A stretch of DNA of 64,000 nucleotides. Origin: an uncultured Candidatus Thioglobus sp. (lineage in GTDB: Bacteria; Pseudomonadota; Gammaproteobacteria; PS1; Pseudothioglobaceae). The notes under the pieces are model-generated. The model saw only the letters and a list, made by a program, of their open reading frames with translations, was not told the DNA's origin and made no database searches. Positions 32,844 to 55,437 of this stretch are shown here, piece by piece. Every line of letters starts with the position of its first letter. Position 1 is the stretch's first letter. Where the stretch lies: the NCBI GenBank assembly GCA_905182815.1, contig CAJJCX010000004.1, forward strand, positions 558,001 through 622,000. Direction: 5' to 3'. The position numbers and the translations under genes were made by a program.

Positions 32844-32897
32844 TTATAGTTGACAACTATATAAAAATTATATAGCCTGTCTATTCAGTCAAGAAGT
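32844..32897 (+). promoter_or_regulatory. 54-bp promoter/operator element, copy A
   Basis: This stretch is 49/54 identical, without gaps, to one at 42081. It begins TTATAGTTGACAACTAT, where TTGACA matches a -35 box and ATAGTTG-A-CAACTAT is a perfect 15-bp palindrome. An AT-rich palindrome CTATATAA-AAA-TTATATAG overlaps it. The conserved end is TAGCCTGTCTATT, one variable base, then AGTCAAGAAGT. It precedes the first half of the pyrimidine island at about 360 bp from the first large gene. Confidence 0.75.
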
Positions 32898-33213
32898 ATT
32901 TAGTTATTTTATTAATTAAATTAGTATGAAGTTAATGAATAAATAAATTGAAGTGTGCTTTAAACCAAATAAGGAGTAGAGGTTTTGTCCAATTTTAGGT
33001 TTGATCTCAATAGCTCCAATGGTATTTGGGAGGTAGACCTGAGAACTGGAAAAAATTTCATGCTAAGCATCTAACTTGAACTAAACATCCAAATTTTCCA
33101 ATGCAAGCTTAACTAGAAAAAGCCTTGGAAGCAAGAAATTATTGAGCCCTTGATTCATATTATTTGGCTCAATAAGTGGAGTAATGCTATGACATTGATC
33201 GGAGATTAAAATT
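32898..33213 (+). other. Gene-poor leader, possible remnant of a lost gene
   Basis: No intact gene is seen here. AAGGAG followed by a TTG at 32985 opens a 27-codon frame (SNFRFDLNSSNGIWEVDL) that stops at TAA. The spacing from the 54-bp element is larger than at copy B, but the local order (element, ACCAAAT, AAGGAG, start) is the same. Beyond the stop there are only short frames separated by stops. It may be a decayed first gene of the operon or a translated leader peptide. The product is not recognised. Confidence 0.35.
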
Positions 33214-33230
33214 AATGTAAGCGTTACATT
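33214..33230 (+). promoter_or_regulatory. 17-bp palindrome upstream of the BMP transporter
   Basis: AATGTAA-GCG-TTACATT is a perfect inverted repeat 24 bp before the BMP start, just ahead of its RBS (AAAGGAG). The GCG centre and TGTAA/TTACA arms resemble LacI-family operators. Alternatively it is a short RNA hairpin. The binding protein is unknown. Confidence 0.5.
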
Positions 33231-33254
33231 TTATAAAAAATAAAGGAGTAATTT

Positions 33255-34259
33255 ATGAAAATAGGAAGATTTAGTAATCTTTTGATTATTACATTATGTA
33301 GCTTTCTTTTGTCTGGACAAGTGCTGGCAGCTAAAATAAAAGTAGCGGGAATATATACTCAACCACTACAACAAAAATGGGATGCCAGATTGCATTTAGC
33401 TTTGCAAGCCCAAGCGGATGCAGGTGAAATTGATTATGTGTATTCTGAAAAAGTTTCTAATACAGATTATGTTCGAGTTTTACGTGAATATTCTGAAAGT
33501 GGAGTGCATCTTATTGTAGGTGAGGCTTTTGGTATTAGTGCCGAGGCTAGAAAAGTATCAGATGATTATCCAGAAATAGCATATCTAATGGGTGATCCTG
33601 GAAGTGGTATGGCGGCGAATATGGCAATAATTTTTCAGTTTTTGATAATTATATTCATGAGCCTTGCTATTTGATGGGTGTTATTGCTGGTGGTATGACT
33701 AAGTCTAATAAGATTGGTATGGTTGGTGGTTACCCAATTGGCGAAGTAAACCGTCTTGTTCCATGCCTTTATGGCTGGCGCAAGGTCAGTTAACCCTGAT
33801 GTTGAGTTCAAAGTTACTTTTCTTGGCTCATGGTATGATCCTCCGAAGGCAAAAGAAGCTGCATTTGCTCAAATTGAAGCAGGTGTAGATGTCTTATATG
33901 CAGAGCGAGCTGGTGTAGTGGATGCTGCAAGAGAAAGAAATATTATTGCATTTGGTAATGTTAATGATATGAATAAAGAGGAAAACGGCACAGGTGTTGT
34001 AGTCACATCTGCTTTATGGCATATGGAGAATGCAATTAATCATGCAATCTCTGGTGTTAAAGCTGGTACATTCGTAGCAGAGGATTATAAAGAATGGACT
34101 ATGATGCAAAAAGGTGGAGCTTCTTTAGCACCTTATTATGAGTTTGATGATCAGATTGCAGCTGATGTTAAAGCTAAAGTTGCAGCAATTTCTTCGGATA
34201 TCATGAGTGGTAACTTTACAGTTGTAGTTAATGACGATGAGCCAAAATCAACTTACTAA
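33255..34259 (+). CDS. BMP-family ABC transporter substrate-binding protein, two compensating frameshifts
   Basis: Periplasmic receptor of the basic-membrane-protein (Med/PnrA) family, which binds nucleosides or related bases. The signal peptide is at about 1-26, ending QVLAA. The frame is lost after GDPGSGMAAN near 33620 (one base missing) and regained near 33758 (one extra base). The middle segment reads FSVFDNYIHEP, CYLMGVIAGG and KIGMVGGYPIGEVNRL without stops. The corrected protein has 334 residues. It heads a transporter operon with the next three genes. Given its context, it probably imports a pyrimidine base or nucleoside. Confidence 0.88.
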
Positions 34260-34268
34260 GATTATCAG

Positions 34269-35789
34269 ATGAAGAAACTACAATTTTCCAAAATTTGTAA
34301 AAATTTTGGTGCTGTTGTAGCTAACGACAATATTTCACTCTCACTAGGTGAGGGTGAAATATTATCTTTGTTAGGTGAAAATGGTGCAGGAAAGACAACA
34401 TTAATGAATATACTTTTTGGGCACTATATTAGTGACAAAGGGTTTATTGAAGTTGAGGGTAAAAGATTAACACCAGGCTCAACAAAAGCTTCATTAGATG
34501 CTGGAATTGGAATGGTTCATCAGCATTTTACTTTAGCGGAAAATCTTACAGTATTAGAAAATATTATTCTTGGCACAGAGCCTTTAAGTAGACTTTGGAG
34601 TAAAAAAAAACTAGCGTATAAAAAACTTGAAGCATTATCAAAGCGCTTCGGCTTATTAATTAATCCAGATGCTAAAGTGGCTGATTTAACGGTTGGAGAA
34701 AAACAGCGAGTTGAAATAATAAAAGCACTTTATCGTGATGCAAGTATTTTAATATTAGATGAGCCAACTGCAGTTCTTACTCCACAAGAAACTATTCAGC
34801 TTTTCAAAGTACTTAAGGAAATGGTAAATGCAGGTTTATCAATAATGTTTATATCGCATAAATTAAATGAAATTTTAGAAATTAGTGATCGTATTGTGGT
34901 TCTTCGTCATGGCAAATTAGTGGGAGAAGTAGCTACTAAAAAGGCAAATAAGGAGTTGCTTGCAGAAATGATGGTTGGCCACAAAGTTACTCGACCAGCT
35001 TATGAAAAATTGGAAATTGGTAAAGCAGTTGTAGAGCTAAATAATGTCTGTCTTAATGCGAGTGATGGCACGGTTGGACTTAGCAATATAAATCTCAAGA
35101 TACATGAAAAAGAAATTATTGGTCTGGCAGGAGTTTCAGGTAATGGTCAATTTGGAGTAGCTTCAATTCTTCAGGGATTAACTCATCCAAGCTCAGGCGA
35201 ATTTAAGCTATTTGGACAGAGTTTAATTAAATATGATCCTCGTTATCTTACAAAATCTGGCGTAGCACGGATTCCAGAGGACCGCTCAAAAGAGGGTGTT
35301 ATTGGGGAAATGGCGCTATGGGAAAATTTCCTTGGAGAGGAGTTACGCTCTAAAGCTAAATCAGGTTTTATTATTGACAAAAAGAAGGCAGTTAATAATG
35401 CTGAAAAATTAATACAAGAATATGATATTCGTTGCGAAGGAGCTTTTGCATCTACAAGATTATTATCTGGTGGTAATATTCAGAAGTTAATCCTTGCAAG
35501 AAGTTTATCGAACAACCCTCGTTTTATAATAGCAAATAAACCAGCAAGAGGCTTAGATGAAGGTGCTATTAGTTTTGTTCAACATCAAATAATAAATGCT
35601 AAAACAAAAGGTGCTGGAGTATTGCTGATTAGTGAAGATTTAGATGAAATTTTTGAACTATCTGACCGTATTGCAGTTATATTTGATGGGAAATTACAAG
35701 GACCTTTTGATGCTAGTTCACTGACTATAAATCAAGTCGGCCTTATGATGAGTGGTGAAATGAAAGAGGGTAGTTTTAATGAGGCTTAA
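34269..35789 (+). CDS. ABC transporter ATPase, double-domain (BMP/nucleoside type)
   Basis: A 506-residue ATPase with two NBDs. NBD1 has Walker A GENGAGKTT, signature LTVGEKQRVEI and Walker B ILILDEPTAVL. NBD2 begins about residue 255 with GVSGNGQFG in place of a full Walker A, signature LLSGGNIQKLILA and a degenerate Walker B (IIANKPARGLD). The NBD2 asymmetry is usual for this transporter class. It overlaps the next gene by 11 bp. Confidence 0.93.
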   Translation: MKKLQFSKICKNFGAVVANDNISLSLGEGEILSLLGENGAGKTTLMNILFGHYISDKGFIEVEGKRLTPGSTKASLDAGIGMVHQHFTLAENLTVLENIILGTEPLSRLWSKKKLAYKKLEALSKRFGLLINPDAKVADLTVGEKQRVEIIKALYRDASILILDEPTAVLTPQETIQLFKVLKEMVNAGLSIMFISHKLNEILEISDRIVVLRHGKLVGEVATKKANKELLAEMMVGHKVTRPAYEKLEIGKAVVELNNVCLNASDGTVGLSNINLKIHEKEIIGLAGVSGNGQFGVASILQGLTHPSSGEFKLFGQSLIKYDPRYLTKSGVARIPEDRSKEGVIGEMALWENFLGEELRSKAKSGFIIDKKKAVNNAEKLIQEYDIRCEGAFASTRLLSGGNIQKLILARSLSNNPRFIIANKPARGLDEGAISFVQHQIINAKTKGAGVLLISEDLDEIFELSDRIAVIFDGKLQGPFDASSLTINQVGLMMSGEMKEGSFNEA

Positions 35790-36831
35790 AACAAGAAGAA
35801 ATACTCCTGTATGGTTAATTGCAGTATTACCCATTCTTTCTATTTTAGTTGCTTTTATTTTTGGCGCTTTTTTTATAATTTGGGCGGGCGAATCTCCAAT
35901 CACTGCTTATATTGCTTTAATTAATGGAGCTTTAGGTTCAAGTTTTGCAATTACTGAATCCCTAACAAGGGCAATCCCATTAATTTTTACAGGTCTAGCA
36001 GCAGCTGTTGCATTTCGAGCAAAATTTTGGAATATTGGTGCAGAGGGGCAATTATATTGTGGTGCTATGGCGGCAACATTAGTTGGGACAGGAATGATTG
36101 ATCTACCCTCTATAATAATGATTCCAGTGTTGTTTATTGCAGGTGCTTTAGCGGGCTGTTTAATTTTGTTGTTACCAGTCTTTCTTAAAACCCATATGAA
36201 GGTGGATGAAGTAGTAACAACTCTGTTGCTGAATTTTATAATTTTACTTTTTGTGAATATGTTGCTTGAAGGGCCTTGGAAAGACCCTATGGCTATGGGA
36301 TGGCCTCAGGCTGCAAGAATTATTGATAATGGAGTTCTGCCTACTATAGTTGCTAAGAGTAGATTGCATTTTGGAATAATTATTGCACTAGTGATGTCAA
36401 TTATAATGTGGGCTATACTTCGTTTTACAGTTTGGGGGTATGAAATACGAGCGGTTGGGTACAACCAGCAAGCCTCAACTTTTTATGGAATATCGATCAA
36501 TAAATCAGTGCTAATGGTTGCTCTTTTTAGTGGTGGATTAGCAGGTATGGCTGGAGTTAGTGAGGTTACTGGTCTGAAAGGCTACTTAACTTTAACTTTA
36601 TCACCTGGCTTTGGTTATACGGGAATAGCAGTTGCAATGCTTGCACAGCTTCATCCTATTGGGGTAATTGTTTCAGCTATATTTCTAGCGTCAATTTATG
36701 TGGGTGCTGATGCGATGAGTCGAACAGTAGATATACCTAATTATATTGCAGATATTTTAGTTGCTATATCTTTATTATCGGTTTTAGTTGGATCAATGCT
36801 GGCACGATTCCGAATTGTTTGGGGTAAATAA
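35779..36831 (+). CDS. ABC transporter permease 1 (BMP/nucleoside type)
   Basis: A 350-residue inner-membrane permease of the BPD_transp_2 (RbsC/YufP) family, with about eight hydrophobic segments and the motifs FWNIGAEGQLYCGAMAAT and VDEVVTTLLLNF. It pairs with the next gene to form a heterodimeric channel. Confidence 0.92.
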   Translation: MRLKTRRNTPVWLIAVLPILSILVAFIFGAFFIIWAGESPITAYIALINGALGSSFAITESLTRAIPLIFTGLAAAVAFRAKFWNIGAEGQLYCGAMAATLVGTGMIDLPSIIMIPVLFIAGALAGCLILLLPVFLKTHMKVDEVVTTLLLNFIILLFVNMLLEGPWKDPMAMGWPQAARIIDNGVLPTIVAKSRLHFGIIIALVMSIIMWAILRFTVWGYEIRAVGYNQQASTFYGISINKSVLMVALFSGGLAGMAGVSEVTGLKGYLTLTLSPGFGYTGIAVAMLAQLHPIGVIVSAIFLASIYVGADAMSRTVDIPNYIADILVAISLLSVLVGSMLARFRIVWGK

Positions 36832-36833
36832 TT

Positions 36834-37781
36834 ATGTTGGAATTACTTGAATTAATATTAACAACGAGTTTATGGGCAGCTGTAGTAAGAATTGCAACCC
36901 CATTAATTTTTGCTACATTGGGTGAATTAATTTGTGAGCGAGCAGGAGTATTAAATCTCGGAATTGAAGGCATAATGACAATTGGCGCAATGGCAGGTTG
37001 GTTATGGGTTTATCAAGGTGGAGACCTCTGGGGTGGAGTAGTATTTGCTGCTATAGTGGGCATGCTATTTGGTTTTCTGCATAGCATATTGGTTGTCTAT
37101 CTTGGTTTGTCACAACATGTTAGTGGAATTGGAATCACTATGCTTGCCTCATCTATTAGTTATTATGCATATACAATGATAATACCATTTAGCACTACTC
37201 CACCCAAAATTGTAGCATTCAGTGCATTTGAAGTGCCATTACTATCATCAATTCCAATTATTGGAGGAGCTTTTTTTAACCAAACTGCATTAACATATTT
37301 AGCATATATATTAGTAATAGTGACTTTCTACGTACTTTATAAAATGCCACTTGGTTTAACAATTAGAATGGCAGGAGAAAATCCAGTTGCTAATGAGGCC
37401 CAAGGTATTAATGTATTATTAATTCGTACTGGGGCAGTAATGGTAGGAAGTGCTTTGATGGCAATTGGAGGCGCATTTTTAACTATGTCTGCATTTGATG
37501 CATTTTATTTTGGTATGATTAATGGTAGAGGGTGGATCTGTGTTGCGCTGGTTATTTTTGCCTCTTGGAAGCCGGGCAAAGCCTTTTTAGGGGCAATTTT
37601 ATTTGCATTATTTGAAGCATTACAGGTTAGGGCGCAATTAATAGGTGCAGATGTTATTCCATATCAAATTTTTTCTATGATGCCATACTTTCTCAGCATA
37701 GTTGCGATGATGCTTGTTGCACGAAGAGCAGCCTATCCTAAGGCATTATTAGTACCATTTAGACAAGGAGATCGTATCTAA
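36834..37781 (+). CDS. ABC transporter permease 2 (BMP/nucleoside type)
   Basis: A 315-residue permease of the YufQ type with LICERAGVLNLGIEGIM and GLTIRMAGENPVANEAQGI. Its TAA overlaps the ATG of the deaminase gene (TAATG), tying uptake to deamination. Confidence 0.92.
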   Translation: MLELLELILTTSLWAAVVRIATPLIFATLGELICERAGVLNLGIEGIMTIGAMAGWLWVYQGGDLWGGVVFAAIVGMLFGFLHSILVVYLGLSQHVSGIGITMLASSISYYAYTMIIPFSTTPPKIVAFSAFEVPLLSSIPIIGGAFFNQTALTYLAYILVIVTFYVLYKMPLGLTIRMAGENPVANEAQGINVLLIRTGAVMVGSALMAIGGAFLTMSAFDAFYFGMINGRGWICVALVIFASWKPGKAFLGAILFALFEALQVRAQLIGADVIPYQIFSMMPYFLSIVAMMLVARRAAYPKALLVPFRQGDRI

Positions 37782-39058
37782 TGTTCGACATACTTATTAA
37801 ACACGCTAACCTTCCAGATGACCGTAAGAATTTTGATATTGCTATTCAAAACAAAAAAATAGTAGCTATTGATAGAAATATTATTGGCGAAGCAGTTAAT
37901 ACTATTGATGCGACTGATAAATTAGTTTCTCCAAGCCACGTCGATAGCCATTTTCACTTAGACGCTACTTTAACTCTTGGTCAGCCACGCTTTAATGAGA
38001 GTGGTACTTTACTTGAAGGTATTCAGCTATGGGATGAGCTAAAACCCCATTTAACTATTGAGCTTATAAAAAAACGTGCTCGAAAATTATGTCATTGGGC
38101 AATAGCAAATGGATGTTTGGCAATTCGGAGCCATGTAGATATAAGTGATGATCGATTGCTGGCAGTTGAGGCGTTATTAGAGTTGCGAAAAGAAATGCGG
38201 GATTGGATCGACATCCAGCTAGTTGCATTTCCGCAAAATGGATATTTACGCTATAAAAACTCTATTAAAAATCTTGATAGAGCATTAAAAAAAGGTGTGG
38301 ATGTTATAGGCGGTATTCCGCACTTTGAACGCACTATGAATGAAGGCTCTTTATCTATTAAATTGTTATGTGAACTAGCCGCAGAAAAAGATTTACTAGT
38401 AGATATGCATTGCGATGAATCGGATGATCCAATGTCTAGACACGTTGAAACACTTGCTTTTGAAGCTCATCGTTTGGGTCTTGAGGGAAGAGTAACGGGT
38501 TCTCACTTAACATCAATGCATTCAATGGATAATTATTACGTAAGTAAATTAATACCATTGTTACAAGAGGCTGAATTACAAGTAGTTGCTAATCCATTAA
38601 TAAATATTACCCTTCAAGGTCGCCATGATCTCTATCCTAAACGCAGAGGAATGACGCGTGTTAAAGAGCTGTTAAATAGTAATATTAACGTTGCTTTTGG
38701 CCATGACTGTGTAATGGATCCATGGTATAGCCTAGGCAAACATGATATGTTAGAAGTTGCTAATATGGGATTACATGTTGGACAAATGACAGGTGTTAAA
38801 GAAATGCATCAAATATTTCAAGCTATTACAAATAATGGAGCCAGAGTAATGCAACTAGATAATTATGGCATTGAGGTTGGTTGCAATGCTAATTTGGTGA
38901 TTCATCAGGCTAATAATCCAATTGAAGCGATACGCTTATGCAATGCGCGTTTATTTGTAATTCGTAATGGCCAGATTATTGCAAAGGCTAATCCAACAGA
39001 AAGCCAACTATTATTAAATGGAGAGAAAGATAAGAGAGTTATAGATTGGACCCTCTAA
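37781..39058 (+). CDS. codA: CodA-like cytosine / 5-methylcytosine deaminase
   Basis: Amidohydrolase of the cytosine deaminase family, 425 residues. The metal ligands are His57 and His59 (VDSHFHLD), His in DMHCDESDD and Asp309 (FGHDCVMDPWYSLG). The proton-shuttle region TGSHLTSMHS and the base-binding VAFPQNG match E. coli CodA. The residue after the metal Asp is Cys310, where E. coli has Asp314. Loss of that Asp was reported to mark deaminases that accept 5-methylcytosine and make thymine. The family call is firm. The 5-methylcytosine specificity is inference. Confidence 0.9.
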   Translation: MFDILIKHANLPDDRKNFDIAIQNKKIVAIDRNIIGEAVNTIDATDKLVSPSHVDSHFHLDATLTLGQPRFNESGTLLEGIQLWDELKPHLTIELIKKRARKLCHWAIANGCLAIRSHVDISDDRLLAVEALLELRKEMRDWIDIQLVAFPQNGYLRYKNSIKNLDRALKKGVDVIGGIPHFERTMNEGSLSIKLLCELAAEKDLLVDMHCDESDDPMSRHVETLAFEAHRLGLEGRVTGSHLTSMHSMDNYYVSKLIPLLQEAELQVVANPLINITLQGRHDLYPKRRGMTRVKELLNSNINVAFGHDCVMDPWYSLGKHDMLEVANMGLHVGQMTGVKEMHQIFQAITNNGARVMQLDNYGIEVGCNANLVIHQANNPIEAIRLCNARLFVIRNGQIIAKANPTESQLLLNGEKDKRVIDWTL

Positions 39059-39149
39059 GAATAATAATAAAAAGAAATGCTGCTTAAGGTAAAAAGATAA
39101 TTATTTTTAAGGGTTAAGTCAAATACCTTAGATGATAGGAGAATAAAAA

Positions 39150-40469
39150 ATGTTAAAAAATAATCCTAAATATTATGATGCTCACTGGATGCCTTATAGT
39201 GGGAATAGAGAGTTTAAAGCAAATCCACGTATAATGGTTTCTGCTAAAGACAGTTATTACATAGACGATAAAGGCAGGAAAATATTTGATGGCCTTTCAG
39301 GTCTTTGGACTTGTGGAGCAGGTCACTCTCGCCCTGAAATTATTGAAGCAGTCTCTAAACAAATTGAGACTTTGGATTATTCTCCTGCATTTCAATTTGG
39401 ACACGAAAAATCGTTTGAGTTGGCAAATAGAATTATTGAATTTACTCCAAAAGATCTGGATCGTGTCTTTTTTACTTGTTCTGGTTCAGAGGCAGTAGAT
39501 AGTTCTCTAAAAATTGCTCGAGCTTATTGGAGACTTAAGGGAAAGGTCGGTAAGACTCGTTTGATTGGAAGGATAAAAGGCTATCATGGAGTTAATTTTG
39601 GAGGGATTAGTGTTGGTGGTATTGGTCCTAATAGAGAAATGTTTGGACAAGGAATTGAAGCAGATCATTTATCGTCTACCCTTCTCCCAGAAAATATATT
39701 TAGCAAAGGGCAGCCCCAGGTTGGAGATCATTTAGCAGATGACTTATTAAATAAAATATTATTGCATGGCGCCTCTAATATTGCAGCAGTAATTGTAGAG
39801 CCAATGGCGGGTTCCGCTGGCGTATTTCCACCCCCCATAGGATATCTAAAAAGGCTACGTAAAATCTGTGACTCTAATGATATTTTATTAATCTTTGATG
39901 AAGTGATAACCGCTTTTGGCCGTATGGGCGCAAAAACAGGTGGCGAAGCTTTTGGCGTTACTCCAGATATAATGACTTTTGCAAAACAGGTTAGTAATGG
40001 CAGCCAACCACTGGGTGGTGTAGTAGTTAAAAAAAATATTTATGAAACTTTTATGGATACAAAAGCACCAAATTATTTAGTTGAATTATTCCATGGTTAT
40101 ACATATTCAGCTCATCCTGTGGGATGCGCTGCATCAATTGCAAGTTTAGATATATTACAGAATGATAATTTGATAGAGCGAGTTAAAAAAATGAGCCCAA
40201 TATTTGAAAAAGAACTTCATAGTCTTAAAGGTTTGCAATATGTTTCAGATATTCGTAATTATGGACTGGCTGGTGGAATTACTATTGAGTCTGCTAAAAA
40301 TGAACCTGCATTAAGACCCTATCAAATTGCAATGAAGTGCTGGAATAAAGGCTTTTATGTTCGATATGGTGGTGATACTATTCAATTAGGTTTGCCATTT
40401 ATCGTATCTGAACAAGAAATAAAGGATGTTGTTGGAGCAATATCTGACTCAATTAAAGAATTACAATAA
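39150..40469 (+). CDS. Omega-amino acid (beta-alanine / beta-aminoisobutyrate) aminotransferase
   Basis: Class III PLP aminotransferase, 439 residues. It has FTCSGSEAVDSSLKIAR, LLIFDEVITAFGRMGA and the PLP Lys in TFAKQVSNGSQPLGG. The start NPKYYDAHWMPYSGNREFK matches omega-amino acid:pyruvate aminotransferases. In this island it would turn beta-alanine into malonate semialdehyde and beta-aminoisobutyrate into methylmalonate semialdehyde. RBS GATAGGAG. It is followed 14 bp later by the matching dehydrogenase. Confidence 0.9.
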   Translation: MLKNNPKYYDAHWMPYSGNREFKANPRIMVSAKDSYYIDDKGRKIFDGLSGLWTCGAGHSRPEIIEAVSKQIETLDYSPAFQFGHEKSFELANRIIEFTPKDLDRVFFTCSGSEAVDSSLKIARAYWRLKGKVGKTRLIGRIKGYHGVNFGGISVGGIGPNREMFGQGIEADHLSSTLLPENIFSKGQPQVGDHLADDLLNKILLHGASNIAAVIVEPMAGSAGVFPPPIGYLKRLRKICDSNDILLIFDEVITAFGRMGAKTGGEAFGVTPDIMTFAKQVSNGSQPLGGVVVKKNIYETFMDTKAPNYLVELFHGYTYSAHPVGCAASIASLDILQNDNLIERVKKMSPIFEKELHSLKGLQYVSDIRNYGLAGGITIESAKNEPALRPYQIAMKCWNKGFYVRYGGDTIQLGLPFIVSEQEIKDVVGAISDSIKELQ

Positions 40470-40483
40470 AGGAGTAAGAAGAG

Positions 40484-41974
40484 ATGAAATTAGTAGAACA
40501 CCTTATTAATGGTGAGCTTGTATCAATGGGTGACCCTACTCAAGATGTATTTAATCCATCGACAGGAGAGGTTGGGAAGCAAGTAGAAATTGCTTCAAAA
40601 AATACTGTTGAAAAAGCTATAAATGCGGCTCACGAAGCTTTTCCAGCATGGCGAGCAACGCCACCACTTAAACGAGCTAGAATTATGTTTCGTTTTAAAG
40701 AATTATTAGAAAAAAATATTAATAAAATAGCGCAATTAATTGGAGAGGAGCATGGAAAAATCGCACATGATGCGCTTGGTGAAATTACTCGAGGTATAGA
40801 GAATGTTGAATATGCTTGCTATGCACCGCAACTTCTAAAAGGAGAGCATAGTAAAAATATTTCAACCAATATTGATTCATGGAGTGAGTTTCAACCCTTA
40901 GGAGTTGTTACAGGAATCACCCCTTTTAATTTTCCTGCTATGGTTCCATTATGGATGTATCCCATGGCAATAGTTTGTGGTAATTGTTTTGTATTAAAGC
41001 CCTCAGAAAGAGATCCTTCGTCAGCATTATTTATTGCTCAATTATTAAATGAAGCAGGCTTACCAAAAGGGGTTTTAAATGTAGTTAATGGAGGTAAGGA
41101 GGCAGTAGATACTTTGCTCAAAGATGAAAGAGTGCAAGCTGTAAGTTTTGTTGGATCAACTCCTATTGCAAAATATATTTATAGAACTGCTTCTGAAAAT
41201 GATAAGAGGTGCCAAGCTCTTGGAGGCGCTAAAAACCATGCTATTGTTATGCAAGATGCAGAAATGGAGAATACAGTGAATGCTCTTATAGGTGCTGCAT
41301 TTGGCTCAAGTGGTGAAAGGTGTATGGCAATTTCCGTAGCAGTAGCAGTCGGCTCAGTCACAGCAGATAATTTAATAGCTGGCTTGAAATCTAAGATGCA
41401 TGACCTTAAGGTGGGTAATTTTGATAATAGTAAAAATGATTTTGGACCACTTATAACTAAAGATCATATGGAAAAAGTTAAAGAATATATCACCAGTGCA
41501 GAAGATCAAGGCGCCGACATTGTTGTTGATGGACGGAGTGTTGAGGTAAAAGGTTGTGAAAATGGCTTTTATGTTGGTGGAACGCTTATTGATAGCGTGC
41601 AATCTTCAATGAAGTCTTATAAGGAAGAAATATTTGGACCAGTATTGCAGGTAGTGAGAGTAGAAACTATGCAACAAGCAATTGACTTAATAGATGAGCA
41701 TGAATATGGAAATGGCACGTGTATTTTCACCCGAGATGGTGAAGCAGCAAGATATTTTAGTGATCAAATAAAAGTTGGTATGGTTGGTATCAATGTACCA
41801 TTGCCCGTCCCTGCTGCTCAGCATAGTTTTGGTGGTTGGAAGCAATCAATGTTTGGTGATTTGGCTGCATATGGGCCAGATAGCGTAAGATTTTATACAC
41901 GTAGAAAAACCATAACTCAGCGCTGGCCATCATCCAGTGTAAGGGAAGGCGTAAACTTTTCTTTCCCTTCATAA
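40484..41974 (+). CDS. mmsA: CoA-acylating (methyl)malonate-semialdehyde dehydrogenase
   Basis: Converts methylmalonate semialdehyde to propionyl-CoA, or malonate semialdehyde to acetyl-CoA, with NAD, CoA and loss of CO2. The 496-residue protein has GITPFNFPAMVPLWMYPMA, FVGSTPIAKYIY, the catalytic Cys in SSGERCMAISVAV, and the MmsA-specific VPAAQHSFGGWKQS. A terminator closes the operon after it. Confidence 0.93.
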   Translation: MKLVEHLINGELVSMGDPTQDVFNPSTGEVGKQVEIASKNTVEKAINAAHEAFPAWRATPPLKRARIMFRFKELLEKNINKIAQLIGEEHGKIAHDALGEITRGIENVEYACYAPQLLKGEHSKNISTNIDSWSEFQPLGVVTGITPFNFPAMVPLWMYPMAIVCGNCFVLKPSERDPSSALFIAQLLNEAGLPKGVLNVVNGGKEAVDTLLKDERVQAVSFVGSTPIAKYIYRTASENDKRCQALGGAKNHAIVMQDAEMENTVNALIGAAFGSSGERCMAISVAVAVGSVTADNLIAGLKSKMHDLKVGNFDNSKNDFGPLITKDHMEKVKEYITSAEDQGADIVVDGRSVEVKGCENGFYVGGTLIDSVQSSMKSYKEEIFGPVLQVVRVETMQQAIDLIDEHEYGNGTCIFTRDGEAARYFSDQIKVGMVGINVPLPVPAAQHSFGGWKQSMFGDLAAYGPDSVRFYTRRKTITQRWPSSSVREGVNFSFPS

Positions 41975-41992
41975 CTGGTTTTTATGTTTTTT

Positions 41993-42024
41993 TAAATGAC
42001 CTCCTTTAGGAGGTCATTTTTTTT
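41993..42024 (+). terminator. Terminator at the end of the first half-island
   Basis: AATGACCTCC-TTTA-GGAGGTCATT is a perfect 10-bp stem with a 4-nt loop and is followed by eight T in total. Confidence 0.95.
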
Positions 42025-42080
42025 GTCCCCTAGATTATATTTAATGCCACTTTGAGAACTATTTAAAGTCAACCAATTAA

Positions 42081-42134
42081 TTATAGTTGACAAGTATAAA
42101 AAAAATATGTAGCCTGTCTATTTAGTCAAGAAGT
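42081..42134 (+). promoter_or_regulatory. 54-bp promoter/operator element, copy B
   Basis: Second copy of the element found at 32844 (49/54 identical). It has TTGACA as a -35 candidate, 17 bp before the conserved TAGCCT. The 15-bp palindrome has one mismatched position here (ATAGTTG-A-CAAGTAT). It lies only 42 bp before the beta-ureidopropionase start, so it is very likely that operon's promoter. Confidence 0.8.
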
Positions 42135-42176
42135 GTAAAGTTTTTTTATTTACCAAATCGGAAAAGGAGGAATTGA

Positions 42177-46925: not shown

Positions 46926-46947
46926 TATAAAATCTAATTTCTTGTAG

Positions 46948-48396
<1,449 letters not shown>

Positions 48397-48437
48397 AAAG
48401 GAAATTTATTTTGTATTGAGGTTCTGTTAATATAACC

Positions 48438-48451
48438 TGACCAAATGGTCA
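48438..48451 (+). promoter_or_regulatory. RutR-type operator upstream of preT
   Basis: TGACCA-AA-TGGTCA is a perfect 14-bp palindrome equal to the core of the E. coli RutR consensus (TGACCA, two free bases, TGGTCA). It lies 24 bp upstream of the preT start codon. The regulator gene three genes downstream is a TetR-family protein of RutR type. Repression relieved by uracil or thymine is the expected logic. Confidence 0.85.
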
Positions 48452-48474
48452 AATATTTTTTTTCGGAGGAAAAT

Positions 48475-49842
48475 ATGAGTGACAATAATTTAACAAATAA
48501 GGTAATGAACATTAAATCACATCGCCTTAGTAAAAAAGAGATTGATGATAATTTTTCAGACCTCCATGCACCATTGTCTGCAATAGAGGCATTAATTGAG
48601 GCTGATCGATGTTATTTTTGTTATGACGCTCCTTGCACAAAGGCCTGTCCATCAGATATTGATGTCCCAGGCTTTATTCAAAGTATTAGGAGTGATAATT
48701 TAACAGGTGCTGCAGAGAAAATTTTAAGTGAAAATATTTTTGGAGGTATGTGTGCCCGTGACTGCCCAACTGAGGAGTTGTGCCAACTGGCATGTGTTCG
48801 AAATGATCATGAACAAAAACCTGTCGAAATTGGATTACTACAACGTTATGCAACTGACTCAGTATTAAACAATGGAGTGCAATTATTTTCTAGGCAAGAA
48901 AATACAGGAAAGTCTATTGCAGTAGTTGGGGCTGGGCCAGCTGGAATATCATGCGCACATCGTTTAGCGGTTTTGGGGCACAAAATAACAGTTTATGATG
49001 CCAAAGATAAGCTAGGAGGTTTAAATGAGTATGGCATTGCAGCTTATAAAACTCCTAATGATTTTGCACAGCAAGAACTTGATTACATTCTAGATATTGG
49101 TGGCATTACTATCGAAACAGGAATGCAGCTTGGTAAACAAATTAATCTTGAAGGTCTTCAGGAGAAATATGACGCAGTATTTTTAGGGTGTGGTCTTGGT
49201 TCAGTAAATAAACTTAATCTTGATAATGAAGACATTTCTGGTGTTATTGATGCCGTTGAATATATTGCAAATTTACGTCAAACCAATAATAAAGATGAAC
49301 TAATGGTTGGAAAAAATATTGTTGTGATTGGTGGTGGTATGACAGCAATAGATATTGCTGTTCAAAGCAAATTGTTAGGTGCAGAGCAAGTAACGATTGC
49401 TTACAGACGTAGTAAAAAAATAATGGCTGCTAGTGAATATGAGCAGGCTCTGGCAAAAAAGCATGACGTACAAATTCAATATAACATGTCACCAAAACGT
49501 CTGATAGCTGATGATAGTCATGTCACTGCAATGGAGTTTGATGTTATGAAGTCACAAAACGATGGAAGCCTCAAGGCAAGTGGGGAAAATATTACATTAA
49601 AAGCTGATGTTGTTTTCAAAGCTATTGGGCAAAAATTAGTGACTGAAGGCTTGACAGATAATAACAGTTTGGAAATAGAAAAAGGAAGGATTGTTGTAGA
49701 TGAACAACGTAAAACTTCATTGTCTAAAGTATGGGCAGGAGGAGACTGTGTTCTTGATGGTGACAATTTAACAGTGTCAGCAGTACAAGATGGCAAACTT
49801 GCTGCAATTTCAATAAACGAAACACTAACACAAGGAGCATAG
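48475..49842 (+). CDS. preT: Dihydropyrimidine dehydrogenase, NAD(P)H/FAD subunit
   Basis: Partner of PreA in NAD-linked reduction of uracil and thymine. The 455-residue GltD-like protein has N-terminal cluster cysteines (CYFCYDAPCTKACPSD and CARDCPTEELCQLAC), the FAD loop AVVGAGPAGISCAHRLA, and the NAD loop VVIGGGMTAIDIA. The ATG with GGAGGAAAAT before it was chosen. An upstream in-frame ATG lies inside the RutR palindrome and has no RBS. Confidence 0.95.
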   Translation: MSDNNLTNKVMNIKSHRLSKKEIDDNFSDLHAPLSAIEALIEADRCYFCYDAPCTKACPSDIDVPGFIQSIRSDNLTGAAEKILSENIFGGMCARDCPTEELCQLACVRNDHEQKPVEIGLLQRYATDSVLNNGVQLFSRQENTGKSIAVVGAGPAGISCAHRLAVLGHKITVYDAKDKLGGLNEYGIAAYKTPNDFAQQELDYILDIGGITIETGMQLGKQINLEGLQEKYDAVFLGCGLGSVNKLNLDNEDISGVIDAVEYIANLRQTNNKDELMVGKNIVVIGGGMTAIDIAVQSKLLGAEQVTIAYRRSKKIMAASEYEQALAKKHDVQIQYNMSPKRLIADDSHVTAMEFDVMKSQNDGSLKASGENITLKADVVFKAIGQKLVTEGLTDNNSLEIEKGRIVVDEQRKTSLSKVWAGGDCVLDGDNLTVSAVQDGKLAAISINETLTQGA

Positions 49843-49843
49843 T

Positions 49844-51145
49844 ATGGCAGATTTAACTAGTAATTTTTTAGGAATTAAGTCACCTAATCCTTTTTGGTTA
49901 GCCTCGGCACCACCGACAGATAAGGCTTATAACGTAAATCGTGCCTTTGAAGCTGGCTGGGGTGGGGTTTCATGGAAAACTCTGGGTGAGGATCCTCATA
50001 TTGTGAATGTTAATGGCCCAAGGTACACAACAATGATGAGTAATGACCGACGAGTTATTGGTTTCAATAATATCGAATTAATAACTGATCGTCCATTTCA
50101 AGTTAATCTTAAGGAAATGCGTCAAGTAAAGAGAGACTGGCCAGATAGGGCTGTGATTGCATCTGTAATGTTTCCAATGAGTGAGGCATCTTGGGCAAAG
50201 CATATCCCTATTATTGAAGATACAGGTATAGATGGTTTTGAGCTTAATTTTGGTTGTCCTCATGGTATGTCAGAGCGAGGAATGGGTGCTGCAGTTGGGC
50301 AAGTTCCAGAATATATAAAACAAGCAACTGAGTGGTGCAAAAAGTATGCCACAGTCCCTGTAATTGTCAAGCTTACGCCAAATATAACTGATGTAATTTA
50401 TCCAGCTGAAGCAGTCCTTGAGGGTGGTGGTGATGCAGTGTCATTAATTAATACCATAAACTCAATTATGAGAGTTGATTATGACAGTTTGACTATGTTT
50501 CCAACTACGGGTGGTATGGGAACTCATGGGGGTTATTGTGGTGAGGCGGTAAAACCAATTGCTTTGAATATGGTGGCAGAGATAGCGCGTAATGAAAAAA
50601 CTAGAAACTTACCAATTTCAGGTATTGGGGGAGTATCGACTTGGAAAGATGCAGTAGACTTTATTGCATTAGGTGCCAGTAATGTTCAGGTTTGTACAGC
50701 CGCAATGGTCTATGGTTTTAAAATTGTTGAAGACATGAAAACTGGATTGAGTAACTTTTTAGATGAAAAAGGTATGAATTCAGTAGATGAGCTAATTGGC
50801 AAAGCAGTTCCATCAGTTACTGATTGGAAGTTCTTGAACTTAAACCACGTTGATAAAGCTGTCATTGACCAAGATAAGTGTATAAAGTGTGGTCGTTGTC
50901 ACATTGTATGTGAAGATACTTCACATCAAGCAATTGAATATTCAACTGATAGTGGTGATAGAGTATTTACAGTTAAGGATGATGAATGTGTTGGATGTAA
51001 TCTTTGTGTAAGCGTTTGCCCTGTAATAGATTGTATCTCAATGGTCGCTATGACATCAGGAACTGACCCTAGAACTGGAAAGGCAATTTCACCACAAGCA
51101 TCTGATTGGACAACTCACCCAAATAATCCATTAAAGGTTTCATGA
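49844..51145 (+). CDS. preA: Dihydropyrimidine dehydrogenase, catalytic subunit
   Basis: FMN subunit that reduces the pyrimidine ring. The TIM barrel carries the active-site Cys in NFGCPHGMSERGMGAAVGQ. The C-terminus carries two [4Fe-4S] sites, CIKCGRCHIVCED and CVGCNLCVSVCP. 433 residues. It starts one base after preT and is surely cotranslated. Confidence 0.96.
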   Translation: MADLTSNFLGIKSPNPFWLASAPPTDKAYNVNRAFEAGWGGVSWKTLGEDPHIVNVNGPRYTTMMSNDRRVIGFNNIELITDRPFQVNLKEMRQVKRDWPDRAVIASVMFPMSEASWAKHIPIIEDTGIDGFELNFGCPHGMSERGMGAAVGQVPEYIKQATEWCKKYATVPVIVKLTPNITDVIYPAEAVLEGGGDAVSLINTINSIMRVDYDSLTMFPTTGGMGTHGGYCGEAVKPIALNMVAEIARNEKTRNLPISGIGGVSTWKDAVDFIALGASNVQVCTAAMVYGFKIVEDMKTGLSNFLDEKGMNSVDELIGKAVPSVTDWKFLNLNHVDKAVIDQDKCIKCGRCHIVCEDTSHQAIEYSTDSGDRVFTVKDDECVGCNLCVSVCPVIDCISMVAMTSGTDPRTGKAISPQASDWTTHPNNPLKVS

Positions 51146-51164
51146 AAAAATAATGGAGAATTGA

Positions 51165-51824
51165 ATGGGTAATAAAAAAGTTCTAGTACAAGCCAGAGGT
51201 ATTACTCGTAGTAAAGAGAGAATTCGTGAAGAAAATGAACTTATTATTTTAATTGCTGCAGAAAAAGTATTTGCAAAGCATGGTCTTAAAGGCTCTACTA
51301 CAAAACAAATTGCAGATATGGCTAAACTTCCAAAATCCAATATTCATTATTATTTTCATACTAAATTAAATTTGTATAGATGTGTCTTAGAAAGCATACT
51401 AGTTGATTGGATGAGGGCTGCTGATACATTTAATAAATTTGATGAACCTCGAGAAGCCTTGAAATATTATGTTGGCGCAAAAATGAATTTGTCACGCACT
51501 AGACCATTCGGCTCAAAAGTGTGGGCAAATGAAATTATTAGTGGTGCCCCTGAAATGGAAGAAGTATTATCATCGAGGTTAAAACAATGGGTTGATACTT
51601 GTGTTAGTTCGATAAATAGGTGGGTTGAACTAAAAAAAATTGTTAATGTGGGTGATGCTCATACCTTGTTATATATGATTTGGGCTACCACTCAACATTA
51701 TGCTGATTTTGATTATCAAGTGATGATTTTAAATAATGGAAAGAAACTTACAGATAGTGAATTTGAAGAAAAAAAACAACAAGTTATTGATTTAGTTTTA
51801 AGAAGCGTTGGTTTAAATCCTTAG
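51165..51824 (+). CDS. rutR: TetR/AcrR-family regulator, RutR-like
   Basis: A 219-residue repressor with the N-terminal HTH at about 25-70 (EKVFAKHGLKGSTTKQIA, LPKSNIHYYFHTK) and a RutR-like ligand domain (FGSKVWANEIISGAPEM). A perfect RutR-type site lies before preT, so it likely senses uracil or thymine and controls the catabolic genes. Last gene of the second half-island. Confidence 0.88.
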   Translation: MGNKKVLVQARGITRSKERIREENELIILIAAEKVFAKHGLKGSTTKQIADMAKLPKSNIHYYFHTKLNLYRCVLESILVDWMRAADTFNKFDEPREALKYYVGAKMNLSRTRPFGSKVWANEIISGAPEMEEVLSSRLKQWVDTCVSSINRWVELKKIVNVGDAHTLLYMIWATTQHYADFDYQVMILNNGKKLTDSEFEEKKQQVIDLVLRSVGLNP

Positions 51825-51987
51825 TCAATATGAGATTAAAAAAGTTTACAAAATAATTCTTAACATCAAGATAAATACCAGATGACATTTACCTAAAATA
51901 GAGAATTTATAGAAAATATATGCATAATAGTTTTTACTAAAGATAGTTATTATGTAGTTGATTTAGGTTAGACAAGGAGTATTCAAA

Positions 51988-52866
51988 TTGGACAGCAGTG
52001 GAAAGAAATTTAGAAAGTTAGTTAATGAAAATAAGCCACTTCAAATTGTAGGCGCTGTTAACGCCTATAGCGCTCTTATGGCTGAGAAAGTTGGGCATCA
52101 ATCAATCTACTTGTCAGGTGGTGGAGTTGCAGCTTCTTCTCTTGGAGTTCCTGATCTTGGTATTACTTCCCTAGCAGATGTTCTCGAAGATGCTAAAAGA
52201 ATTACTCAAGTAACTTCCCTACCATTATTAGTAGATGCAGATACTGGCTGGGGTGGGGCACTTAACATTGCTCGTTGCGTTCGAGAAATGATAAATAGTG
52301 GCGTAGCTGCTATCCACATTGAAGATCAAGTTTCTCAAAAACGTTGCGGACATAGACCAAATAAGGCCATAGTTAGTACAAATGAAATGGTTGACAGAAT
52401 TAAAGCTGCAGTTGACGCCAAAACCGATCCTAACTTTGTAATTATGGCAAGAACAGACTCATTGGCCATAGAGGGTATGCAGTCTGCTATTGATAAAGCG
52501 ACAGCTTTTGTAGAAGCTGGTGCTGATATGATATTTCCTGAGGCGCTCAATACCATTGAGCAATATAGAGAGTTTTCTGATTCAATTAATGTCCCTATTC
52601 TAGCAAATATAACTGAATTTGGTCAAACACCATTATTTACCAAAGAGGAGCTTTCTGAGGCTGGTGTGGATATGATTCTTTATCCACTAAGTGCCTTTAG
52701 GGCTATGAGTAAAGCAGCTCTTAATGTCTATCAACATATCTTGCAAGATGGTCATCAAAATAATGTGATAGACAGTATGCAAACAAGAGAAGAGTTATAT
52801 GATTTTTTAAATTATCATCAATATGAAAAGCAATTAGATGATGTAATGAATAAGGAGAGTAAGTAG
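51988..52866 (+). CDS. prpB: 2-methylisocitrate lyase
   Basis: Splits 2-methylisocitrate to pyruvate and succinate. The 292-residue protein of the ICL/PEPM family has [31 protein letters not shown] with the catalytic Cys, and [11 protein letters not shown]. It starts with TTG, placed 9 bp after AAGGAG. First of three tightly packed methylcitrate genes. Confidence 0.94.
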
Positions 52867-53993
52867 TGAGTGGAAAAAAAATAGGTGGAGCTGGTCTTAG
52901 AGGTCAGAGTGCAGGTGAGACATCAATATGTACAGTTGGAGTTAGCGGTTCTGGCCTCACATATCGTGGCTTTGATATCGTAGATTTAGCAGAAAATACA
53001 ACTTTCGAAGAGGTTGCCTATCTTTTATTGAAGGGAAAACTACCTAACTCACAGGAATTAAAAGCATATATAGAAAAACTCAAAACATTAAGAGGACTTC
53101 AACCTGAACTAAGAAGTACTTTGGAGGGTATCCCTAAAACTGCTCATCCTATGGACGTTTTAAGGACAGGCTGTTCGGTTCTTGGTAATTTAGAGCAAGA
53201 GGAAGGCTTTATAAACCAAACTGACCATGCAGATCGTATGCTGAGTGCATTTCCATCGATACTTAGCTACTGGTATCAGTATTCCCACTATGGAAAAAGA
53301 ATTGATACGGAGACAAGTGATGATACTATTGGTGGTCATTTTTTACATCTCTTGCATGGTAAAAAACCTAGCCAACTGCATGATCAAGTAATGAGTATTT
53401 CTTTGATTTTGTATGCTGAACATGAATTTAATGCCTCCACTTTTGCTGCAAGAGTTTGTGCCTCAACGCTTTCAGATATTCATTCTGCTGTTACAAGTGC
53501 TATTGGGACATTACGCGGACCATTACATGGAGGCGCAAATGAAGCCGCTAGTGCTATGCTATCCCAATGGAATGACCCTGATGTTGCAGAGGCTGAATTA
53601 CTTAAAATGCTTGCACAAAAGCAACTTGTGATGGGTTTTGGACACGCAGTTTATACTCAATCTGACCCTCGTAATGAGGTTATCAAGCAATGGTCAAAAA
53701 AATTATCTATGGAGGTTAACGATAAGCATCTATATGATGTATCAGAAAGAGTTGAAATGGTTATGAGAAGAGAGAAAAATCTATTCGCAAATGCTGACTT
53801 TTATCATGCTTCTACCTATGAATTTATGGGAATACCAACTAAACTATTTACCCCAATATTTGTTCTTTCAAGAGTAACTGGATGGTGTGCTCACATTTTT
53901 GAACAGAGACAAAATAATCGAATCATTAGACCCAATGCAGATTATATAGGTCCAGGTCCACAAAAAGTCAGCCCCATAGAAACAAGGAGTTAG
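52866..53993 (+). CDS. prpC: 2-methylcitrate synthase
   Basis: Condenses propionyl-CoA with oxaloacetate. The 375-residue citrate-synthase-fold protein has the catalytic His regions in GPLHGGANEAA and MGFGHAVYTQSDPRNEV, and Asp in ADFYHASTYEFMGIP. Short length and synteny with prpB and prpD identify the methylcitrate type. It starts with GTG overlapping the prpB stop (TAGTG). Confidence 0.94.
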   Translation: MSGKKIGGAGLRGQSAGETSICTVGVSGSGLTYRGFDIVDLAENTTFEEVAYLLLKGKLPNSQELKAYIEKLKTLRGLQPELRSTLEGIPKTAHPMDVLRTGCSVLGNLEQEEGFINQTDHADRMLSAFPSILSYWYQYSHYGKRIDTETSDDTIGGHFLHLLHGKKPSQLHDQVMSISLILYAEHEFNASTFAARVCASTLSDIHSAVTSAIGTLRGPLHGGANEAASAMLSQWNDPDVAEAELLKMLAQKQLVMGFGHAVYTQSDPRNEVIKQWSKKLSMEVNDKHLYDVSERVEMVMRREKNLFANADFYHASTYEFMGIPTKLFTPIFVLSRVTGWCAHIFEQRQNNRIIRPNADYIGPGPQKVSPIETRS

Positions 53994-53997
53994 TATA

Positions 53998-55437
53998 GTG
54001 AAAGCAGATAGAATGTCAGCAGATCAAGCTCTGCAAGATATCGCTGATTATGTGATTGATTTTAAAGTAGAGTCTGAGGAGGCCTTAAATACTGCTAGAA
54101 ATTGTTTAATAGATACTATCGGCTGTGGTCTTTTGGCTTTGAAATATCCAAATTGTACTAGACATTTAGGCCCATTGGTGCCTGGGACCACAGTAGAAAA
54201 TGGTGCTAGGGTTTTTGGAAAGTCATTTGAGCTTGACCCAGTAAAAGCAGCTTGGGATATTGGCGCCTTAGTTCGATGGTTAGATTTTAATGACACTTGG
54301 TTAGCTGAAGAGTGGGGGCATCCTTCTGATAATTTAGGCGCAATTATGGCTCTTAGTGATTATATTTCAAGAGTAAATATTGCGAATCATAAATCACCAT
54401 TAAGTATAAGAGATGTGCTCGAGTACATGATAAAAGCTCATGAAATACAAGGTATTCTTGCACTTGAAAATAGTTTTAATAAAGTAGGCCTAGACCATGT
54501 TTTACTCGTAAGAGTTGCAAGCACAGCTGTTGCTACGCATATGCTAGGAGGGACAAGAGAACAAATTATTGATGCTTTATCACAAGCTTGGGCTGATGGT
54601 TCTTCTCTTCGAGCCTATAGGCATGCACCTAACGCTGGCTCAAGAAAATCATGGGCTGCTGGCGATGCAACATCTCGCGCAGTTCGCCTGGCAATGATAA
54701 CTATGGCTGGTGAGATGGGTATGCCTTCCATTTTGAGTTCACCAGAGTGGGGCTTTTATGATGTAAGTTTTAAGGGAAGAGAGTTTAGCTTCTCTAAGAG
54801 CTATGGAACTTATGTTATGGAGAATATTCTTTTTAAGATATCTTTCCCAGCTGAATTTCATGCTCAAACTGCAGTAGAATGCGCAGTATTGCTTTATCCA
54901 GAGATTAAAGAAAAGTTAAATGAAATTGAAAGGATTGAAGTTACAACTCATGAGTCAGCACTTAGAATTATTGATAAAACAGGCGCCCTAGATAATCCAG
55001 CTGATCGAGATCATTGTATGCAATATATGCTTGCAGTTGCAATGATTAAAGGTGATTTGGTGGCTGAGTTTTATGAAGATTCCTTTCATCAACAAAACTC
55101 ATTAATTGATAAGCTTCGAAATAAAATGATTTTAAAGGAAGATAAAAGATACTCAAAAGACTACCTAGCAGATGACAAGAGATCTATTGCCAATGCGTTA
55201 CAGATTTTCTTTAAGGATGGGAGTCAAACTGATAAAGTGGAAGTTGAATATCCAATAGGACACCGTAATCGTCGCCAGGAAGGTATTCCATTACTTGAGA
55301 GAAAATTTTTTAATAGTCTCAAAAGTATTTATTCTAAAGAGCACAGTGACAGGATCTACTCATTGTGTCTTGATAAAGAGAAAACTGAACAAACACCTGT
55401 CAACGAGTTTATGGACATGTTTGTTCTTAAAGATTAA
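53998..55437 (+). CDS. prpD: 2-methylcitrate dehydratase
   Basis: Dehydrates 2-methylcitrate to 2-methylaconitate. The 479-residue MmgE/PrpD-family protein has LIDTIGCGLLAL, WLDFNDTWLAEEWGHPSDN and AWADGSSLRAYRHAPNAGS. PrpD itself being present means no AcnD/PrpF pair is needed. It starts with GTG 4 bp after prpC. No prpE or prpR accompanies the trio. Confidence 0.95.
   Translation: MKADRMSADQALQDIADYVIDFKVESEEALNTARNCLIDTIGCGLLALKYPNCTRHLGPLVPGTTVENGARVFGKSFELDPVKAAWDIGALVRWLDFNDTWLAEEWGHPSDNLGAIMALSDYISRVNIANHKSPLSIRDVLEYMIKAHEIQGILALENSFNKVGLDHVLLVRVASTAVATHMLGGTREQIIDALSQAWADGSSLRAYRHAPNAGSRKSWAAGDATSRAVRLAMITMAGEMGMPSILSSPEWGFYDVSFKGREFSFSKSYGTYVMENILFKISFPAEFHAQTAVECAVLLYPEIKEKLNEIERIEVTTHESALRIIDKTGALDNPADRDHCMQYMLAVAMIKGDLVAEFYEDSFHQQNSLIDKLRNKMILKEDKRYSKDYLADDKRSIANALQIFFKDGSQTDKVEVEYPIGHRNRRQEGIPLLERKFFNSLKSIYSKEHSDRIYSLCLDKEKTEQTPVNEFMDMFVLKD

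Follow-up and report, generated by a model that had tools for sequence, protein, structure and literature searches.

What does it mean that genes of the methylcitrate cycle stand directly behind genes of pyrimidine reduction in the genome of a marine bacterium of the Thioglobus group? The locus that raises this question lies in the 64,000-nt stretch analysed here (the window; positions 558,001 to 622,000 of contig CAJJCX010000004.1, from an uncultured Candidatus Thioglobus sp.), where importers, a cytosine deaminase, enzymes of reductive pyrimidine degradation including preT and preA (preTA), a gene for a RutR-like regulator (rutR below) and prpBCD follow one another as a single run on the + strand (33255-55437), hereafter the island. 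By textbook enzymology, uracil is converted to acetyl-CoA and thymine to propionyl-CoA. We consider it likely that the island is one pyrimidine-controlled catabolic unit, by which thymine would be turned into pyruvate and succinate, and uracil into acetyl-CoA. Directly observed are the gene identities, the conserved linkage, the lack of any methylmalonyl-CoA mutase match, the presence or absence of the island at a shared chromosomal site, and the shared upstream elements.

Linkage of prpBCD to preA

The distribution of these genes was determined in 83 genomes of the family, 49 of them near-complete, with a genus set of 29 genomes that includes the genome of the window itself (G000, 77% complete). 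PreA exceeded its cut-off in 10 of the 83, all in the genus of the window, and PrpD in 13 (10 in the genus, plus G047, G048 and G082 outside it). In eight of the ten preA genomes (G000, G005, G006, G008, G012, G021, G027 and G032), prpB comes directly after rutR. The ten comprise G000, G008 and the genomes represented by loci L004 to L011 (respectively G005, G029, G021, G006, G012, G032, G018 and G027, each counted once); among these eight loci the rutR-prpB junction is present in L004, L006, L007, L008, L009 and L011, and not in L005 and L010. Because the rutR-prpB-prpC order recurs in eight of ten related genomes, the arrangement exceeds chance, and the idea that the pair is peculiar to G000 or its assembly was rejected, the single-contig G008 being among the eight. 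The initial annotation, which had described prpBCD as joined to the pyrimidine genes, is thus borne out by synteny in the relatives examined.

The association also holds at the level of whole genomes. All ten preA genomes contain prp genes (nine by PrpD over the cut-off, G032 by prpB and prpC at a contig end), against one of the 19 genus genomes devoid of preA (G030; G015 and G028 scored weakly, with 49 and 41 bits). The co-occurrence yields a Fisher p of 5e-7, or 9.5e-6 if G032 is scored negative, with kinship ignored; among the 14 genomes that are at least 89% complete, prp was found in 7/7 with preA and 1/7 without (Fisher p 0.005, kinship again ignored). G016 was counted as preA-negative only because its contig breaks off within the island, ahead of preA; the earlier island genes are present in it at the shared site, and leaving this genome out gives 10/10 against 1/18. 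The two preA genomes in which the linkage is missing have prpBCD elsewhere: in G018 on another contig, 87-91% identical to that of the window and followed by a PrpE-like gene, and in G029 as a distant type (55-62% identity) resembling that of G030 and G048. That prp simply tracks methylmalonate/malonate-semialdehyde dehydrogenase (MMSDH) was rejected, since MMSDH is over the cut-off in 22 of the 29 genus genomes and prp is found in 11. The second MMSDH gene of G000, which lies near a gene for a rhizopine-type ABC binding protein (278 bits, cut-off 420), may be an inositol-type copy.

The distant prp type (L086, L088, L092, L095) was seen in G029, G030, G048 and, as prpD only on a short contig, G047; a regulator gene stands before three of the four loci: an Lrp-like and a GbdR-like one, both scoring below cut-off, and a GntR-like one.

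Joint gain of the two gene sets as one fragment, retained by common descent or co-transfer with no joint function, would also produce such a pattern, and we judge this very improbable. As eight of the ten preA genomes are linked, prp and preA are not present independently of each other, and the prp and pre trees appear to group the genomes broadly alike; the protein distances of prpBCD and of pydB-preT-preA-rutR correlate at 0.93 (8 linked genomes, 28 non-independent pairs). Yet the preA genomes lie scattered on the rpoB tree, and the gene order persists although the proteins differ by as much as 14% (prp) or 11% (pre); the unlinked G018 and G029 carry prp elsewhere. On that tree, which holds 22 of the 29 genomes, the presence of preA needs eight changes, at least six of them forced by well-supported branches, and the preA labels are no more clustered than shuffled ones; seven genomes with no rpoB match, G021 among them, are not on the tree, and incomplete genomes may inflate the number of changes.

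Outside the genus the linkage was not encountered. The PreA loci compared were the best 80 of 213 confirmed, 8 of them from the genus of the window (92-99% identity) and 72 from others (L012-L083), mostly recorded as Rhodobacterales, spanning at most 10 kb on either side. No match to prpB, prpC or prpD was found in any of these 72 (8 of them shortened by contig ends), and linkage was found in none of the 10 other preA gammaproteobacteria from a sample of 369 genomes of the class (G000 apart) and none of the 50 preA plasmid records (72,556 searched, with PreA and PrpD at E 1e-100; 30 with PrpD). A linkage general to preA was therefore rejected. Five of the ten gammaproteobacteria do have PrpD over the cut-off: in two it lies on the preA contig, at distances of about 0.9 and 1.1 Mb, and in three on other contigs, where a draft break may have hidden a linkage. 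In three plasmid records preA and prpD occur together, with hundreds of kb between them.

Genes of the island and the proposed fate of propionyl-CoA

Gene calls were graded against curated NCBIfam bit-score cut-offs, Pfam domains and the closest solved structures (PDB, with phmmer for the hydrolase). The genes of the island are as follows:

33255-34259, + strand: BMP/PnrA-like substrate-binding protein, in two frames (33255-33674 and 33756-34259); PF02608 in both pieces
34269-35789, 35779-36831 and 36834-37781, + strand: ATPase and two permeases of the first ABC importer, BMP type; PF00005, PF02653
37781-39058, + strand: cytosine deaminase, codA-like; NF005748, 721 bits (cut-off 438)
39150-40469, + strand: omega-amino acid aminotransferase AptA; NF052567, 676 bits (cut-off 500)
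40484-41974, + strand: CoA-acylating MMSDH; TIGR01722, 659 bits (cut-off 448.5); 4zz7_A, 849 bits
42177-43049, + strand: beta-ureidopropionase-like carbon-nitrogen hydrolase, pydC; PF00795
43054-46925, + strand: second ABC importer, NMT1/THI5 type (ATPase, two permeases, binding protein); PF00005, PF00528 twice, PF09084
46957-48396, + strand: dihydropyrimidinase, pydB; TIGR02033, 599 bits (cut-off 393)
48475-49842, + strand: preT, NAD(P)H/FAD subunit of dihydropyrimidine dehydrogenase; PF14691, PF07992
49844-51145, + strand: preA, FMN/Fe-S subunit of dihydropyrimidine dehydrogenase; NF006183, 679 bits (cut-off 335)
51165-51824, + strand: RutR/PydR-like TetR-family regulator; PF08362, 162 bits
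51988-52866, + strand: prpB, 2-methylisocitrate lyase; NF008455, 523 bits (cut-off 353); TIGR02317 over cut-off
52866-53993, + strand: prpC, 2-methylcitrate synthase; NF009006, 619 bits (cut-off 550)
53998-55437, + strand: prpD, 2-methylcitrate dehydratase; TIGR02330, 810 bits (cut-off 458); NF006943 over cut-off; 6s62_A, 704 bits

All the genes named by the initial annotation were thus recovered on the + strand where it had placed them, most over their NCBIfam cut-offs. Its names stood by curated models in most cases, those of the amidase, PreT and the regulator falling below the cut-offs, and its single importer proved to be two, one of BMP type (33255-37781) and one of NMT1/THI5 type (43054-46925). 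PreT has no NCBIfam match over the cut-off (best NF009410, 337 against 516) and owes its name to its Pfam domains and its place before preA; its start is most likely 48475 rather than 48445, because a Shine-Dalgarno-like GGAGG precedes the former. The regulator scores under the RutR equivalog cut-off (TIGR03613, 154 against 368 bits), and is accordingly called RutR/PydR-like only. PreA has a CPHGM stretch, with the catalytic Cys, in common with dihydropyrimidine dehydrogenase 1gt8, and PrpB a KRCGH stretch in common with 2-methylisocitrate lyase 1mum. Methylmalonate-semialdehyde dehydrogenases are the closest solved relatives of the CoA-acylating dehydrogenase. The top solved relatives of the aminotransferase are omega-amino acid--pyruvate and beta-alanine--pyruvate transaminases, and it probably acts on beta-aminoisobutyrate as well as on beta-alanine. 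For the first importer (34269-37781), the closest NCBIfam model is 'putative B6 ABC transporter', with every score below cut-off; the NMT1-type importer may be dispensable, because G021 (L132 / L006) has none between its amidase and dihydropyrimidinase genes.

The split binding-protein gene at the start of the island was considered as a true pseudogene and this was rejected: both halves match in a single frame in L077, L082, L091 and L126, and the break is likely an assembly indel because rpoB of G000 (G000:C4:424370-428418, outside the window) is likewise broken, into three frames. The G000 assembly thus probably carries indels, so that short or overlapping genes in it are to be read with caution.

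From these identities the following route can be proposed. The island, in two gene groups, would import nucleobases and deaminate cytosine to uracil; PreTA would reduce uracil or thymine, and dihydropyrimidinase and beta-ureidopropionase would open the ring, with ammonia and CO2 set free. The beta-alanine or beta-aminoisobutyrate so formed would be transaminated, and the CoA-acylating dehydrogenase would then turn uracil-derived carbon into acetyl-CoA and thymine-derived carbon into propionyl-CoA, which presupposes that the amidase and the aminotransferase accept methyl-branched intermediates. Transcription of prpBCD would follow on from preTA-rutR and be controlled by the RutR-like regulator as well, and the prpBCD products would, together with a housekeeping aconitase, convert propionyl-CoA via 2-methylcitrate to pyruvate and succinate. 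Thymine as the substrate, co-transcription, the pairing of regulator and operator, and the flux itself are the parts of this scheme that we infer.

Propionyl-CoA would be sent through 2-methylcitrate because no methylmalonyl-CoA mutase was found in the lineage: PF01642 matched in none of the 83 family genomes, including the 49 near-complete ones, while a control search was positive in 8 of 14. Among the standard routes for removing propionyl-CoA, this leaves the methylcitrate cycle as the single one found. PrpE was over its cut-off in 0/29 genus genomes, consistent with an intracellular origin of propionyl-CoA, and neither an AMP-binding protein nor prpE was found among the island proteins scanned. 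PrpE-like proteins of about 700 bits occur in G015, G018 (698 bits, PrpE cut-off 827) and G030, with a 579-bit piece in G026; prp does not adjoin preA in any of these genomes.

The propionyl-CoA might nevertheless have other origins. In a second reading, which we hold to be unlikely, prpBCD disposes generally of propionyl-CoA from odd-chain, amino-acid, 2-oxobutyrate or propionate carbon and merely lies behind a pyrimidine operon, whose genes supply nitrogen from uracil and cytosine. Were this so, housekeeping sources of propionyl-CoA should be common to all genomes, though PrpD is found in only one of the 19 preA-less members of the genus, and the island has no prpE. The same prp type of G018, on its other contig and with a PrpE-like gene next to it, does agree with general disposal, as do the threonine dehydratase and the PrpE-related ligase of G000 described below.

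Upstream elements and the weight of the evidence

Four elements of the island region bear on its expression:

32803-32921, + strand: upstream region 1, a copy of a 119-bp direct repeat with TTGACA and the element TAGCCTGTCTATTCAGTCAAGAA (32873-32895); 76% identical to 42040-42158
42040-42158, + strand: upstream region 2, the second 119-bp repeat copy, before pydC, with the element TAGCCTGTCTATTTAGTCAAGAA (42110-42132)
48437-48452, + strand: RutR-type palindrome CTGACCAAATGGTCAA before preT, at most 2 mismatches to the E. coli consensus
41994-42019, + strand: terminator-like hairpin between the two gene groups, 11-pair stem and T run

The two 119-bp copies precede the bmp genes and the amidase gene, respectively, and the 23-bp element within them has two matches in the window against none in 100 shuffles. 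Region 1 may be read as a promoter/operator and region 2 as a putative promoter; no + strand promoter at 42087 is among the matches listed. The 23-bp element looks like a drifted form of the RutR-type palindrome. Before pydC it is also present in G005, G008, G016, G027 and G029, and as a variant in G021. The palindrome itself, scored against the E. coli RutR consensus, stands before preT in all ten preA genomes of the genus (junction read in nine; L004 by position), and it is on this conservation that the evidence for it rests, because its match within a single window is non-significant. Among the 72 other preA loci, 65 hold a RutR-type palindrome somewhere (at most 2 mismatches; no shuffle comparison). 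RutR motifs differ among proteobacterial taxa (PMC5343134). In the open-licence literature searched, the RutR operator is described as a palindrome of about 16 bp, and its consensus was not encountered.

No RutR-type operator was seen before prpB, and a repeat of the bmp/pydC element there, looked for in the window, was discarded as a candidate. The hairpin at 41994-42019 has the longest stem of the nine terminator-like sites found in 39000-58900 (shuffles give a mean of 11.5), and none of the sites listed in that scan falls in the rutR-prpB gap. Measured between match ends, this gap is 34-43 bp in five genomes (G006, G008, G012, G021 and G032) and longer in G000 (163 bp) and G027 (166 bp). 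As it is mostly short and contains no listed terminator, prpBCD would most simply be the tail of the preT operon. Promoter-like sites occur in 39000-58900 at the background rate (65 found, 60 of them listed, against 64.9 expected).

Several observations weigh against a single pyrimidine-controlled unit. At the regulatory level, (i) 26 of 100 shuffles match the palindrome at 2 mismatches or fewer, so that alone it is non-significant in one window, and it was also flagged as a short terminator-like hairpin (48438-48451), (ii) in G008 and G016 the bmp genes have no 23-bp element upstream of them, and (iii) the longer gap of G000 and G027 could hold a promoter, weak matches being present in G000 at 51830 and 51899. 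Among the enzymes, the amidase (42177-43049) is named beta-ureidopropionase-like from its closest solved relatives, its best PDB phmmer matches including the beta-ureidopropionases 8pt4 and 6ftq, and its identity is not settled by curated models (best NCBIfam TIGR03381, 245 bits, under the cut-off of 410). The aconitase gene lies outside the island interval, and the only aconitase-family match in the 77%-complete G000 has the size of LeuC, although AcnB-sized matches are present in the nine other preA genomes (partial in G027); the initial annotation's 'complete' is therefore to be qualified in respect of the aconitase. A threonine dehydratase (26036-27529) makes another source of propionyl-CoA possible, and a PrpE-related ligase below the cut-off lies at about 9999-11843 in the window (516 bits); ligases of about 515 bits, present in most genus genomes, could activate propionate. 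Because G030, G047, G048 and G082 have PrpD and no PreA, prp also serves other ends, as general disposal of propionyl-CoA would have it. Lastly, physical linkage alone can make prp accompany preA, and only G018 and G029 show it unlinked.

The joint route from thymine to central metabolism, which the initial annotation had drawn from adjacency, is nevertheless supported by prp in 10/10 preA genomes against 1/19 others, by the mutase result (0/83), by the lack of prpE in the block and by the palindrome in 10/10.

Chromosomal site and possible movement of the island

In the window, the genes flanking the island encode a thiolase, an Ldh_2-type protein and a saccharopine-dehydrogenase-like protein. 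These genes are contiguous, with no island, in G007, G011, G019, G024 and G031, so that in these five the empty site itself was seen, whatever incomplete genomes may add to the changes counted on the rpoB tree. None of the five has PrpD over the cut-off, while prp is in all ten preA genomes, which argues further against prpBCD as a general propionyl-CoA outlet. The whole island was read at this shared site in G000 and G008, and in G005 thiolase, MMSDH, preA and prpD are all on one contig. The site is not universal, as other genes follow rutR in G029. In the window the Ldh_2-type gene (31589-32521) precedes the island, and in G012, G018 and G021 (L132 of G021, with L094 and L085) it follows the island; on account of these different sides the site may be an insertion hotspot. 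No integrase was found among the proteins scanned in 27986-60157; the closest tRNA gene, tRNA-Asn (29323-29398), is 3.4 kb from the island, and none lies at its boundary.

Transfer of the island within the genus is suggested by G029 and G006, whose distance is small for preTA (about 0.03 changes per site) and large for rpoB (about 0.2); support in the preTA tree is weak for the pair itself and full for its clade with G018. We tentatively suggest, as a possibility that falls short of the probable, that the island moves among Pseudothioglobus genomes as a self-sufficient unit for feeding on DNA bases (thymine, cytosine by deamination, perhaps 5-methylcytosine) and brings its own B12-independent propionyl-CoA sink under the pyrimidine repressor, and that prp is dropped where the recipient already has a prp operon (G029; G018, standing apart).

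Other genes were noted around the site. An open reading frame of about 350 aa, absent from the window, lies between the Ldh_2-type and saccharopine-dehydrogenase-like genes in L122 (7233-8297), L124 (4338-5417), L125 (15632-16669) and L132 (12796-13836). Downstream (55497-59259), the saccharopine-dehydrogenase-like protein and two FAD oxidoreductases, one of them closest to L-pipecolate oxidase (below cut-off), are seen with and without the island. A histone-deacetylase-domain protein (PF00850) is encoded upstream in the window (22902-23840).

Comparison with known systems

Taken together, our data suggest that Thioglobus-group marine bacteria can turn thymine into central metabolites, adjacency within the island being in itself no proof of this. 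If true, thymine would be a source of carbon, energy and nitrogen for another marine group, and bacteria free of the mutase would deal with propionyl-CoA by coupling the methylcitrate cycle to the pathway from which it arises; preA-rutR-prpB would then be a simple genomic marker for candidate thymine oxidisers. In PMC11698098, Prochlorococcus is described as releasing thymidine, thymidine use by SAR86 is read from a transporter and a kinase, and other heterotrophs are also credited with it; the words Thioglob, SUP05 and propionyl are absent from that paper. Joining of preTA to prp was not found in the open-licence literature at the level of titles and abstract starts, among the matches listed.

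For the reductive pyrimidine cluster, a figure legend of PMC7332683 lists dihydropyrimidine dehydrogenase, dihydropyrimidinase, ureidopropionase, beta-alanine aminotransferase and malonic semialdehyde dehydrogenase, and the reference list of that paper cites the RutR-like repressor PydR of P. putida. Four of these enzyme types recur in the island, next to a beta-ureidopropionase-like amidase and a RutR-like regulator; the island differs from such Pyd/PreTA clusters by prpBCD behind preTA-rutR, by its cytosine deaminase and BMP importer, and by its marine Thioglobus-group host. The 72 other preTA loci resemble it in having preT-preA (all of them) and a RutR-like gene, dihydropyrimidinase and an NMT1-type importer (most of them), with L077 and L082 alike also in the BMP importer and codA, and differ in having no prpB, prpC or prpD match. 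Compared with the E. coli Rut oxidative uracil pathway, the RutR-type regulator and palindrome are similar, whereas no rutA-G enzymes are among the matches listed for the island proteins. With prpBCDE operons the island shares PrpB, PrpC and PrpD in their usual order, and is distinguished from them by the lack of prpE and by the adjoining pyrimidine-type regulator; in the prpBCD of G018, G030 and G082, within the same family, a gene for an AMP-binding protein comes next, unlike in the island. The parts, reductive pyrimidine clusters and prp operons, are thus known, and what appears to be new is the position of prpBCD directly behind preTA-rutR.

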